Source: Streptomyces sp. APSN-46.1 (lineage in GTDB: Bacteria > Actinomycetota > Actinomycetes > Streptomycetales > Streptomycetaceae). Taken from it: a DNA stretch of 64,000 nucleotides. The notes below the pieces were generated by a model. That model was not told the origin of the DNA, ran no database searches, and worked only from the letters and a program-made list of their open reading frames with translations. Below are positions 15,188 through 52,986 of this stretch, one piece after another (position 1 is the stretch's first letter; every line of letters starts with the position of its first letter). Location: NCBI RefSeq assembly GCF_022815725.1, contig NZ_JALGRF010000003.1, positions 310,001 through 374,000 on the forward strand. Direction: 5' to 3'. The position numbers were made by a program, and so were the translations under genes.

Positions 15188-15215
15188 ACCGCACGGGGCC
15201 GGGGGCCAGGGGCCG

Positions 15216-15327
15216 GAGAGGCCGGGGACCGGAGAGGCCGGGGACCGGAGAGGCCGGGGACCGGAGAGGCCGGGGGCCGGAGAGGCCGGGGACGGGAGAG
15301 GCCGGGGACGGGAGAGGCCGGGGGCCG
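15216..15327. repeat. seven tandem 16-bp units between convergent genes
   Basis: The unit GAGAGGCCGGGGACCG repeats seven times with minor changes (GGGGGCCG, GGGGACGG). It fills the space between the GbsR-type gene and the diacylglycerol-kinase-like gene, which converge here. Purine and G-run density on one strand could give stable structures, including G-quadruplexes, and slow transcription. No promoter or terminator hairpin is apparent beside it. Confidence 0.85.
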
Positions 15328-15398
15328 GAGGGGCCGGAGCCCTGGAAGCCCAAGCCCCGGGAAACCCCCTGCCCCTGCCCCGGCCCCCGGCCCGGGCG

Positions 15399-20430: not shown

Positions 20431-20473
<43 letters not shown>

Positions 20474-25820: not shown

Positions 25821-27151
25821 TCGCTGTCACCCGGCTTGACGTCGGTGAAGGCGGTGTCCGTGTTGTTGTCCTCGTTCGGGTCCGCGTCGTCGCCGAACAC
25901 CTTGGCGGTGTTCTTCACGGTGGTGGGCTCCAGAACGTTGGCCGCAGTGCCGGTCACTTCGATCTCCACGCGGTCGCCCTTCTCCAGCGGACCACCCGTG
26001 CAGGAGAGGAGGCCGTCGGTGATCTGGCACCCTTCGGTCGGCGTGGTGGGCGACAGGATCTTCGCCGGCAGGTCGTCGATCAGCGACCAGCCGGAGGAGC
26101 GGACCTTCCCGTCGTTCTTCCCGTCGTTCTTCCCGTCGTTCTTCCCGTCGTTCTTCCCGTCGTTCTTCCCGTCGTTCTTCCCGTCGTTCTTCACGGTGAT
26201 GCGGTAGGTGACTGCGCCGCCCACCTCGACACTCTTGGTGCCCTCCTTGCGCACCGCCAGGTCGGCGGACGAGTCGAGGAAGCAGGAGGTGGCGTCGAGG
26301 TTCGTCGCCGGGGTCGTGGTCTGCGTCGAGAGCACGATGAACCGCGGGTTGGAACCGGTCGCATTCTTCACGTGTACCCGGATGAGCTGTCCGGAATTGC
26401 GGAAGAATCCGAGATCGCCATTCCCGTACGTGAAGACGCCGCCGAAGTCCTCACCTCCCGGAAGAACACCCGGGAAGAAGTCCACGCTCTCATTGGCGAT
26501 GTCGATCCGCGTGATGGCGCCGTCATCGGTCGAGCCCCACAGGAATCCGTCACGGAACGCGATGTCGAAGACGTCGAGTTCCGGGTCGGCCAGCTCCGGG
26601 ACGTTGATGACATCCGTGACCGAGCGGGAGTTGACGTCGATCTGATAGATCTCCCCCGTATCGTCGGCCAGGACGTAGTAGTTGCCCTCGTCGTCGAACG
26701 TTCCCGAGATGTAGAGGGCGAGCGGCAGACCGGCAATGGCACCAAGGTTGGTGAAGTCTCCATTGCCGTCGAAGCGAACCAGGTCGTTGTTCGCGTTGCC
26801 GAACGTGGTCCCGTAGAGGAAGCGATCGCGCGGGTTCACTCCGATGGCGTTGTAGAGGAACGGTGTGGGGTCGCCCAGTGGCGTGAACTGGACCGTTCCG
26901 GGCCCTCTGCCGGCGGTGTAGAGCTGGTTCGGGTCACCGAACGAGACGTAGACCTGCCCGTCGCACGCAACCCCGTTCCCGTCGGGGTGCTTCTGCGCGA
27001 CAGCCGCCGCAGGGGCCGGGACGGCACCGGCCGGTGACGCCGGCAGGCTGGAAGCGAGCCCTGCGACGATACCCACCGCGCCCAGCGCGGAAAGCGCGCG
27101 CAGCCGCCGCTTTCCGTGGTTCGGCCTCTTTGTTCCTCGAATCACGAACAT
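25817..27151 (-). CDS. secreted propeller/DUF11 surface protein with (NDGK)7 insert
   Basis: A 444-residue exported protein. A long signal peptide (to about residue 44, ASPAGA) is followed by a propeller-like N-terminal region with repeats such as RFLYGTTFGNANNDLVRFDGNG and EIYQIDVNSRSVTDVI (~60-290, DUF6923-like). A DUF11 (CARDB-like) domain follows: ADLAVRKEGTKSVEVGGAVTYRITVKN ... GDDADPNEDNNTDTAF. A run of seven NDGK units is inserted in the DUF11 domain at the place where homologues usually have a short loop. No membrane anchor follows, so it may be released or bound to other surface parts. It converges on the deacetylase. Confidence 0.82.
   Translation of the reverse strand: MFVIRGTKRPNHGKRRLRALSALGAVGIVAGLASSLPASPAGAVPAPAAAVAQKHPDGNGVACDGQVYVSFGDPNQLYTAGRGPGTVQFTPLGDPTPFLYNAIGVNPRDRFLYGTTFGNANNDLVRFDGNGDFTNLGAIAGLPLALYISGTFDDEGNYYVLADDTGEIYQIDVNSRSVTDVINVPELADPELDVFDIAFRDGFLWGSTDDGAITRIDIANESVDFFPGVLPGGEDFGGVFTYGNGDLGFFRNSGQLIRVHVKNATGSNPRFIVLSTQTTTPATNLDATSCFLDSSADLAVRKEGTKSVEVGGAVTYRITVKNDGKNDGKNDGKNDGKNDGKNDGKNDGKVRSSGWSLIDDLPAKILSPTTPTEGCQITDGLLSCTGGPLEKGDRVEIEVTGTAANVLEPTTVKNTAKVFGDDADPNEDNNTDTAFTDVKPGDSD
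26111..26182. repeat. 12-bp in-frame coding repeat (NDGK)
   Basis: GTCGTTCTTCCC occurs six times in exact tandem, with partial copies on both sides, inside the DUF11 gene. On the coding strand it gives Asn-Asp-Gly-Lys seven times. The unit is a multiple of three, so length changes keep the frame. Confidence 0.95.
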
Positions 27152-46250: not shown

Positions 46251-46271
46251 GTTGAGTCTATTCCACTCAAG
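46251..46271. promoter_or_regulatory. HAIR operator of clpB
   Basis: TTGAGT-N7-ACTCAAG matches the HspR operator (CTTGAGT-N7-ACTCAAG) except for the first base. It is placed between clpB and the divergent oxidase-like gene, 89 bp from the clpB start and 24 bp from the other start, so both could be affected. Confidence 0.88.
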
Positions 46272-46797: not shown

Positions 46798-46841
46798 CAC
46801 AGCGGCGCCATCGTGGTCAGGTCCACGATGGCGCCGCTGTG
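46798..46841. terminator. 19-bp perfect stem, bidirectional terminator
   Basis: CACAGCGGCGCCATCGTGG and CCACGATGGCGCCGCTGTG are perfect complements around a 6-nt loop. It separates the oxidase-like gene from the convergent Rieske-like gene, 43 bp before the latter's stop. Confidence 0.93.
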
Positions 46842-46884
46842 TGGGGGAAGCGCCTGAGCGATCTGCAACGACGGGGGAATCGCG

Positions 46885-47199
46885 TCAGGCACTGCGGGGG
46901 GTGGCGGTGGTGATATCGGGTTCGAAGAGCTGGTGGTCGCGCTGATCGAGATTGACGAAGACCATGCCGTACCGCACCTCACAGCGGACGGGCTGCGGCG
47001 CGCCGCGGGGGCGGCGCAGACAGCGGTAGGCGCGGACGTCCTCGTCTTCCTCGCGCACGACGACGATGGGCTGACCGAACAGGGTGACCATCAGCGAATC
47101 GCCCGTGTGGGGAATCGCCGTGGCGAGGTCGATGAACTGCCATCCGGACCGGTACGCCGAGGCCATTTCGCGCCGGAAGTCACGGTCGTCGGGGGTCAT
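46885..47199 (-). CDS. miniature Rieske-like protein lacking the iron-sulphur ligands
   Basis: A 104-residue protein. FRREMASAYRSGWQFIDLATAIPHTGDSLMVTLFGQPIVVVREEDEDVRAY matches the N-terminal part of ring-hydroxylating oxygenase alpha subunits, and RYGMVFVNLDQ matches their block after the Rieske centre. The ~50 residues between, which hold CxH and CxxH, are missing; only YRCLRRPRGA remains, with Arg where the histidine should be. The catalytic domain is absent as well. It has two cysteines (60, 73). The start shares a base with the stop of the repeat-peptide gene (TGATG), so the two are made together. Function unknown. Confidence 0.7.
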   Translation of the reverse strand: MTPDDRDFRREMASAYRSGWQFIDLATAIPHTGDSLMVTLFGQPIVVVREEDEDVRAYRCLRRPRGAPQPVRCEVRYGMVFVNLDQRDHQLFEPDITTATPRSA

Positions 47200-47453
47200 C
47201 AGACGGCCTTCAGGGGCGCGGCGTTCCAACCACTGTCCGCCTCGCCTGCCGGCGTGGCGTTCCAACCACTGTCCGACTCTCCCGTCGGCGCGGTGTTCCA
47301 CCCACTGTCCGACTCCCCTGCCGGCGTGGTGTTCCAACCGCTGTCACTGGCCAGAGCCCTCCCCGCATCACCATTGACGACGCTGACTGCCCCAAAGACC
47401 GCGACAGCGGAGAAAACAACGGCAAGCGCCGAGCGAAGCATTCTCTTGTACAT
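47199..47453 (-). CDS. secreted precursor of four 12-residue DSGWN repeats
   Basis: An 84-residue precursor. A signal peptide (KRMLRSALAVVFSAVAVFGA) ends with ALA at 33-35, an ideal signal-peptidase site, and the very next residue opens the first repeat. The mature part is four units: SDSGWNTTPAGE, SDSGWNTAPTGE, SDSGWNATPAGE and ADSGWNAAPLKAV. No cysteine occurs. DSGWN is invariant; changes fall in the Thr/Ala/Pro part. ATG 47453 is preceded by GTGAGGACG. The Rieske-like gene is coupled downstream and a large regulator is divergent. A peptide signal or a modified (RiPP-like) product are the main ideas; neither is shown. Confidence 0.75.
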   Translation of the reverse strand: MYKRMLRSALAVVFSAVAVFGAVSVVNGDAGRALASDSGWNTTPAGESDSGWNTAPTGESDSGWNATPAGEADSGWNAAPLKAV

Positions 47454-47540
47454 GGTCGGCTTCGTCCTCACTTGATGGAATCTTCTCCCCCGCACGTCAG
47501 ACCATGGCTCATTCAGGCACGTTACGGCCACAGGGACGAT

Positions 47541-47561
47541 GCATCATGTTCTTGCATGTTC
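47541..47561. promoter_or_regulatory. direct repeats in the peptide/regulator divergent spacer
   Basis: GCATCATGTTC (47541-47551) and GCATGTTC (47554-47561) are imperfect direct repeats in a more AT-rich part of the 129-bp spacer between the repeat-peptide gene and the regulator. They are candidate binding sites for the divergent regulator. Confidence 0.35.
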
Positions 47562-47582
47562 AGGACCCTGGGGGGTGGAGAT

Positions 47583-48584
47583 TTGCCAATAAACAACACA
47601 AACCCGACACATCCCCACCTCGTCACGGCCATGTGCGACGAGGGGGCGCGCCTGTACGCGGCGGCGCTGAGCACGGGCCGGGTGCCACGGGGAGAAGTGG
47701 CGAACGCCCCCTGCCTGCTCGAATTCGGTCTGCTGCGACCCGACCCGGATGACGCGAACCAGCTCCGGGCGGTTCCCCCGTCCGTCGCTCTGGCCCAACG
47801 GCTTCATCCGCTCGAACGCGAGATCCAGGACCGCAGGCGCACGGCCATCGATCTCACCGATGCATTCGAGCCTTTCCTCGCCATCAGCGCCCAGAGCTCG
47901 GCGAACACCCACTCCATCACCGTGCTGGAGGGGTTCGACCAGATCAACGCCGCCCTGGACCTCGCCACCGCCGCGTGCCACACGGAGATGCTGACCGTCC
48001 AGCCGGGCGGCGCCCGGCCGTCTTTCGTCCTCAGCGAGGCCCTGGAGCGCGACGCGCCGCTGATCGACCGCGGCGTGAGCATCCGGACCCTCTACCAGCA
48101 CACCGCCCGGCACAGCCAGGGCACGCTCGCCTACGTGGACCGCATCTCCACGGGGAAGGTGGAGATCCGCACGCTGGAAGAGCTGATCGAGCGCCTCATC
48201 ATCTTCGACCGGACGGTGGCCTTCATCCCCGTCAGCGAAGACCGGCGGGTGGCGCTGGAGCTGCGGCATCCGGGGCTCGTGCAGTACCTCATCAAGGTGT
48301 TCGAGCAACTCTGGCGCCGTGCCGTGCCGTTGCGCGACGAGGTGACGTACACGCACATGCCCGAGGGCATCTCCGGCGTGCAGCGCTCCATCGCCCAGCT
48401 CCTCATCGAGGGGCATGTGGACGAGGCGATCGCGCGCCGGCTGGGGATGAACGTACGGACCTGCCGCGCGCACATCGCGAAGCTGGCCACCGCCCTGGGC
48501 AGCGGGAGCCGGGCCCAGCTCGGCTATCTCATCGCCCAGTCGGGGATCCTGCACGGGGACCCGTCACAGCTGCCGAAGTGCTGA
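47583..48584 (+). CDS. TrmB/LuxR-type transcriptional regulator, divergent from the repeat peptide
   Basis: About 333 residues. The middle (DQINAALDLATAACHTEMLTVQPGG ... GVSIRTLYQHTARHSQGTLAYVDRI ... DRTVAFIPVSEDRRVALELRHPGLVQYLIKVFEQLWRRA) is the PLD-like ligand-sensing domain of TrmB-like regulators; the C-terminus (SIAQLLIEGHVDEAIARRLG, VRTCRAHIAKLATALG) is a LuxR-type DNA-binding domain. In Streptomyces such proteins commonly control neighbouring small genes. The start is uncertain: TTG 47583 with GGTGG 4 bp before, or ATG 47631. It probably controls the repeat-peptide pair. Confidence 0.8.
   Translation: MPINNTNPTHPHLVTAMCDEGARLYAAALSTGRVPRGEVANAPCLLEFGLLRPDPDDANQLRAVPPSVALAQRLHPLEREIQDRRRTAIDLTDAFEPFLAISAQSSANTHSITVLEGFDQINAALDLATAACHTEMLTVQPGGARPSFVLSEALERDAPLIDRGVSIRTLYQHTARHSQGTLAYVDRISTGKVEIRTLEELIERLIIFDRTVAFIPVSEDRRVALELRHPGLVQYLIKVFEQLWRRAVPLRDEVTYTHMPEGISGVQRSIAQLLIEGHVDEAIARRLGMNVRTCRAHIAKLATALGSGSRAQLGYLIAQSGILHGDPSQLPKC

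Positions 48585-51046: not shown

Positions 51047-52986
<1,940 letters not shown>

Follow-up and report, generated by a model that had tools for sequence, protein, structure and literature searches.

Architecture of the locus

Do a gene for a small repeat protein, a gene for a Rieske-like protein and a divergent regulator gene form one system and, if so, what does it do? The question is raised by positions 46885–48584 of a 64,000-nucleotide stretch of DNA (the window) from the 6.6 Mb genome of Streptomyces sp. APSN-46.1, whose nearest named locus by regulator identity is that of S. goshikiensis (98.6%). The trio lies between clpB/PPOX and hspR-dnaJ-grpE-dnaK and consists of two minus-strand genes and, divergent from them, one on the plus strand. 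An earlier reading made from this sequence alone had the coordinates and description right, and the architecture recurs in 80 of 80 loci, far above chance.

The precursor gene runs on the minus strand from ATG 47453 to TGA 47199 and encodes 84 residues (90 from an alternative GTG start at 47471). It opens with a signal-peptide-like segment (47349..47453, minus strand; MYKRMLRSALAVVFSAVAVFGAVSVVNGDAGRALA), recognized by sequence and hydropathy, which ends in ALA (...GRALA|S). The sequence-only reading had the repeats begin exactly at this AxA-type site; the site is present, but the first DSGWN core starts one residue further on. Four such cores, with a 36-bp period, occupy residues 37–41, 49–53, 61–65 and 73–77 (47345–47331, 47309–47295, 47273–47259 and 47237–47223; span 47223..47345, minus strand), and TRF reports a tandem repeat of period 36 over 47215–47345 (3.6 copies, 85% matches). 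Units 1–3 of the four 12-residue units are near-identical, as described previously, whereas unit 4 (DSGWNAAPLKAV) retains little outside the core. We infer that the precursor is a Sec-type secreted protein. Its TGA overlaps the ATG of the Rieske-derived gene, here termed RSK (TGATG, 47201–47197), which bears out the proposed stop/start coupling of the two genes.

Two further features of the window were observed. PPOX and RSK are convergent, and the strong inverted repeat that lies between them (46808–46845) is probably a terminator for both. Short tandem arrays, perfect or near-perfect, are present at 26105–26192 (12 bp × 7.3) and 20431–20473 (CCGGTTA × 6), with others at 15204–15337 (16 bp × 8.4) and 506–608 (8 bp × 11).

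Conservation and surroundings of the trio

A scan of named genomes yielded 80 loci, all from Streptomyces except one deposited as 'Actinobacteria bacterium'. Every one of them has the same gene order, with RSK, a [DE]xxW-core precursor, a regulator of at least 55% identity, PPOX and clpB; precursor and regulator are divergent neighbours throughout (80/80), and hspR was seen in the fetched stretch at nearly all. Repeat genes standing without the Rieske-like and regulator genes, the pattern named earlier as speaking against a linked set, were not seen at these loci. RSK matches were found in 124 of 147 good-quality Streptomyces genomes (about 84%); among all RSK-matching genomes about nine have a weak match only, some to full-length oxygenases. 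The 16 other Streptomycetaceae genera sampled gave no RSK, bar one match to a full-length oxygenase frame. The regulator orthologue is likewise absent from the 27 tested genomes without a good RSK match, where the best matches (43% or less) are paralogues, so the regulator and RSK are kept or lost together.

The placement of the trio between HspR-controlled chaperone loci agrees with HAIR-like (HspR) sites upstream of clpB (46251–46271) and dnaK (52912–52932), each with one mismatch, where 0.04 would be expected by chance. No such site was found within the trio. The HspR-type sites flank the trio and stay outside it, so we rejected a heat-shock link, and the position itself looks incidental. 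A near-invariant element just upstream of the regulator start (47545..47567, no strand assigned; CATGTTCTTGCATGTTCAGGACC) is a candidate operator identified by conservation. The conserved block at this place (CATGTTCNTGCATGTTCAGGACC) is common to 81 intergenic regions and includes a direct repeat, and most relatives carry an inverted TCCTG/CAGGA within it. The window genome has no second copy at up to 3 mismatches, so searching with the element predicted no wider regulon. The element is the best candidate operator and would imply local autoregulation. A sigma-70 promoter scan gave no match, and PADLOC no meaningful match.

Some Streptomyces have two or three adjacent regulators of this family at the clpB-hspR site (SCO3664-3665-3666 type; L205:3209-6373, L145:5695-8669 and L147). 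Only one peptide gene was recognized at such multi-regulator sites.

Core sequences of the precursors

Comparison of the orthologous precursors corrects the 12-residue functional unit proposed earlier to a 5-residue core, [DE]xxWx, present in 1 to 9 copies per precursor (81 loci). Consensus cores at these 81 loci include DSGWN, DTGWT, DSGWR, DISWD, DLGWD, DPGWH, EPTWD and EPSWG, and one locus beyond the 81 (L149) has seven DLSWS cores. Core 5-mers are 97% identical inside one precursor vs 49% between loci, and the flanks, taken as five residues either side of the core, are 28% identical within precursors. Synonymous codons for identical core residues are equally scrambled within and between loci, differing in 36% and 38% of pairs, respectively. 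The cores are therefore mostly old copies kept alike by selection, and recent tandem duplication is ruled out as the source of their homogeneity. From the sequences, this is as would be expected if each core must fit one target.

A single core is common in relatives of the precursor, and these carry it at the extreme C-terminus (DTIWS, DSQWG, DPAWD). At L145, L146 and L147 a strongly diverged RSK (E about 1e-15) accompanies one C-terminal core (DPAWD or DPTWG) and no repeats.

Predicted structure of the regulator

The divergent regulator (47583..48584, plus strand, TTG start) is the SCO3664 orthologue. Pfam and NCBIfam gave only weak GerE/LuxR-type and DUF matches, the GerE match (residues 304–350) lying below the Pfam cut-off. 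We used AlphaFold2 to predict its fold (pLDDT 79, pTM 0.49), which comprises a TrmB-like winged helix (20–64), a long helix of coiled-coil type (67–105), a PLD/TrmB-like sensor domain (113–247) and a LuxR-type HTH (266–321). The best PDB matches of the model in Foldseek were TrmBL2 (E 4e-14) and TrmB (4e-8). The modelled sensor domain resembles the TrmB sugar-binding domain 2f5t (Z 14.6, rmsd 2.4 over 128) and also PLD-family nucleases, and the modelled HTH gave a structural Z of about 11 over 63–69 residues. Thus the TrmB/LuxR assignment with a ligand-sensing-type domain, made earlier from sequence, holds at the level of the predicted fold. The PLD catalytic motif HxK(x)4D was found in 0 of 42 aligned regulators, which makes ligand binding likelier than catalysis for the sensor. 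The regulator is predicted to be cytoplasmic.

Covariation of core and sensor

We took the species background from ClpB, HspR and PPOX distances and compared loci by partial Mantel tests (76 loci). The core and whole-regulator distances are correlated (partial r 0.63, p 0.001), those of core and RSK hardly (0.14, or -0.09 after the regulator). By domain, the correlation is 0.665 for the sensor, 0.55 for the N-terminal domain and 0.10 for the LuxR HTH, the last being limited by how little the HTH varies. The core–sensor correlation is 0.75 within P cores and 0.54 within non-P cores. Covariation with the sensor is just as strong for the signal segment (0.69) as for the core, so joint inheritance of precursor and regulator accounts for part of the covariation; with the signal segment also controlled, core against sensor stays at 0.53. 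At the sequence level, then, the core tracks the sensor domain beyond phylogeny, and hardly RSK or the DNA-binding domain.

Two sensor positions, numbered from base 47580, follow the core type. Residue 144, which adjoins an invariant QPG, is Ser in 21 of 21 E-type and two D-type loci and Gly in the remaining D-type loci. At residue 202, all loci with P cores have Ile and all those with non-P cores have Leu. The regulators fall in deep clades, so these matches represent few independent events and serve as leads only.

Paralogous peptide–regulator pairs

The window genome encodes five regulator paralogues above 100 bits (E below 1e-25), and each of the five adjoins a small ORF of signal type that carries a W core (DIGWN ×2, GIGWD ×2, a C-terminal FDWI, DDMSWQ and EDFSW). 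Cores beside paralogues in other Streptomyces include DPAWD, DPTWG, DTGWD, SIGWD, SLWD, NIWF and NYWG, and those in other actinobacterial families DTSWG ×2, DTGWR, DSSWPY, DTAWE ×2, DGAGWQ ×2 and GNTWPG ×4. A regulator homologue was found in 19 of 114 genera sampled. One non-Streptomyces precursor (L255:3338-3616), near a distant regulator homologue, has a near-exact GNTWPGAV repeat four times.

A signal-type W-core ORF lies within 1.5 kb at 32 of 61 paralogue loci vs 5 of 153 natural and 10 of 305 shuffled controls (Fisher p 3e-16 overall, an optimistic value since the 61 loci include some that are closely related or adjacent to one another). At the other 29 loci no W peptide was found under the rules used. 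For the non-Streptomyces loci the count is 11–12 of 26 (p about 1e-7). Part of the Streptomyces paralogues served to draw up the W rule, which was later slightly widened (W among the final 9 residues, or two [DEN]xxW), so both p-values are indicative and not strictly pre-registered; the last widening was made while the non-Streptomyces set was being read, and the controls were scored with the same final rule. Covariation and family-wide pairing together support, at the sequence level, the earlier suggestion that peptide and regulator act together.

RSK, a remnant of a Rieske oxygenase

RSK (46885..47199, minus strand) has 104 residues and matches Pfam Rieske below the cut-off (E 0.0049, residues 20–59). 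Against solved dioxygenase alpha subunits, residues 4–67 align up to the first cluster motif, and the alignment then jumps to the segment following the second. All four cluster ligands, CxH and CxxH, are therefore absent, and no CxH...CxxH pattern was found in RSK in these alignments or in the conserved columns. The RSK model (pLDDT 73) has its best structural matches, all weak, in the same oxygenase family, including GbcA, the glycine betaine monooxygenase. RSK thus aligns to the N-terminal Rieske part of the non-haem oxygenase alpha subunits (biphenyl and benzene dioxygenase, GbcA) and to the segment after it, but unlike them it has no [2Fe-2S] ligands, no second half of the Rieske domain and no catalytic domain. 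The earlier description of a Rieske-derived protein that has lost its metal part was accurate.

The mean column identity of RSK is 84%. That RSK is so conserved yet hardly covaries with the core suggests that it acts on something that does not vary; our guess would be an adaptor in the cytoplasm. The paralogous peptide–regulator pairs occur without RSK. Of the trio proposed as one system, the peptide and regulator stand, whereas RSK, absent from these pairs and hardly covarying, is not a defining partner. We infer a role as a conserved accessory of the SCO3664-type branch only.

Homologues in S. coelicolor

Genome G352 matches exactly both SCO2686 primers and two ArgR-site sequences published in PMC6585502 and PMC5839063, and is therefore S. 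coelicolor or very near. Encoded in its clpB-hspR interval are RSK, a peptide with DTIWS at its end, the 345-aa trio regulator (counted from the first listed start) and two further regulators, of 327 and 394 aa. These two lengths are exactly those given for the LuxR proteins SCO3665 and SCO3666, respectively (PMC3282765), and together with the gene order they point to SCO3664 as the trio regulator. SCO2686, a paralogue at 41%, lies next to a gene for a peptide that ends in DSQWG. In a published transposon study, SCO3664 and SCO2686 are actinorhodin downmodulators whose insertions raise actinorhodin, those in SCO3664 being among the ones that do so more than 50-fold, and complementation plasmids are listed for both (PMC6585502). 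ArgR sites are reported at SCO2686 (PMC5839063; our locus L199), and one regulator of the SCO3664/SCO2686 family may thus be tied to arginine control.

Proposed mechanism and alternatives

The architecture, its conservation, the homogeneous cores, the core–sensor covariation and the family-wide pairing, as read from the sequences, strengthen the peptide-signal reading made at the outset. We consider it probable that the locus is a peptide-signalling circuit, RRNPP-like in its working but with a different, unrelated receptor. Sec would export the precursor, peptidases would free short peptides built on the DSGWN core, and an oligopeptide permease would bring these back in. Once inside, the core would bind the cytoplasmic regulator at the PLD/TrmB-like sensor domain, and this would alter how the regulator binds DNA, in the divergent promoter region at a minimum. 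Having cores in tandem would increase the dose and the core sequence would determine strain specificity, while RSK would be an accessory of the SCO3664-type branch, perhaps as a cytoplasmic adaptor. In S. coelicolor the orthologue would restrain actinorhodin production, directly or indirectly.

The same sequence data would fit a secretion-coupled autoregulator, in which the peptide binds the regulator inside the producer before export, or export merely removes the peptide, with no cell-to-cell signal. The receptor is predicted to be cytoplasmic and the locus has no dedicated importer, both of which suit this arrangement. However, the single-core relatives carry the core at the extreme C-terminus, like exported and processed signals, and varying copy number with homogeneous cores fits the release of separate peptides. 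We regard this explanation as unlikely.

Slightly less likely still is that the precursor is a RiPP or secreted antimicrobial, with RSK as a processing or immunity factor and a regulator that switches the operon and senses something else. Multi-core precursors are known among RiPPs, and RSK is both translationally coupled to the precursor and highly conserved; but RSK has no cluster ligands, paralogous pairs do without it, and the core covaries with the sensor and hardly with RSK. Nor was a modifying enzyme found in the operon, in the clpB–hspR interval of the window or among the conserved neighbours, and the multi-core modified peptide of the sequence-only reading is set aside on these grounds. 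Least likely, the peptides are secreted factors with a structural, metal-binding or envelope role, controlled incidentally by regulators that sense sugars or stress. The sugar-binding homologous TrmB domain and the neighbouring chaperone loci with HspR-type sites are in line with this, but core residues track the sensor beyond phylogeny, which target-gene status alone does not predict, and other families show the pairing again with diverged cores.

Taking the family of peptide-signalling circuits as a whole, we lean modestly towards the view that these are widespread, undescribed pheromone circuits of actinobacteria, with xxxW-type (commonly DxxW) precursors and TrmB/PLD/LuxR receptors forming several private channels per genome (six here), at least two of which (SCO3664, SCO2686) would restrain S. 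coelicolor antibiotic production. The genome of each Streptomyces strain would then reveal several peptide signals encoded by genes, and these short linear peptides can be synthesized and added to cultures. Insertions in two receptor genes raise actinorhodin, so adding such peptides or deleting receptors could serve generally to switch on silent antibiotic clusters. A long-standing idea holds that Streptomyces peptide signals are taken up by permeases such as BldK, with a reported factor of 655 Da. The circuits would offer testable candidates for such imported signals; the two S. coelicolor cores found do not match this mass (DTIWS 620.3, SDTIWS 707.3, DSQWG 591.2, DDSQWG 706.3 Da).

Comparison with known systems

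We compared the proposed circuit to gamma-butyrolactone signalling, TrmB regulators, RiPPs and RRNPP systems. The gamma-butyrolactones of Streptomyces are enzyme-made small molecules with a TetR-type receptor controlling antibiotics. They share with the proposed circuit a diffusible signal and a cytoplasmic receptor regulator that controls antibiotics, whereas the signal proposed here is a gene-encoded peptide and its receptor is not of TetR type. The archaeal regulators TrmB and TrmBL2 (PDB 3qph, 2f5t, 5box) share the winged helix, coiled coil and PLD-like ligand domain, but the Streptomyces regulator adds a C-terminal LuxR-type HTH and its proposed ligand is a peptide, not a sugar. Multi-core RiPP precursors also hold tandem near-identical cores in one precursor; unlike them, the trio precursor has a Sec-type signal, a linked regulator and no modifying enzyme.

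Known actinobacterial signals are typically small molecules made by enzymes. Peptide signalling has been described mainly in Firmicutes (PMC10075063). No earlier description of such peptide–regulator pairs was found in the open-access papers searched. The closest parallel in working is RRNPP quorum sensing of Firmicutes (Rap-Phr, PlcR-PapR, Rgg-SHP, AimR-AimP; PMC10075063), which shares a small Sec-type propeptide adjoining a cytoplasmic receptor, a short, often C-terminal, lineage-variable core and several parallel pairs per genome. RRNPP receptors, as described in Firmicutes and the mobile elements of these bacteria, are built from TPR peptide-binding repeats, which are not present in the regulator; its predicted sensor is an alpha/beta PLD-like domain with TrmB and PLD as PDB matches, and the system is therefore not an RRNPP member. 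The trio precursors further differ in having up to 9 tandem cores (81 loci) and a constant W. On the most parsimonious reading, an RRNPP-like circuit was reached by convergence in Actinomycetota, with a receptor of TrmB/PLD/LuxR-like type.
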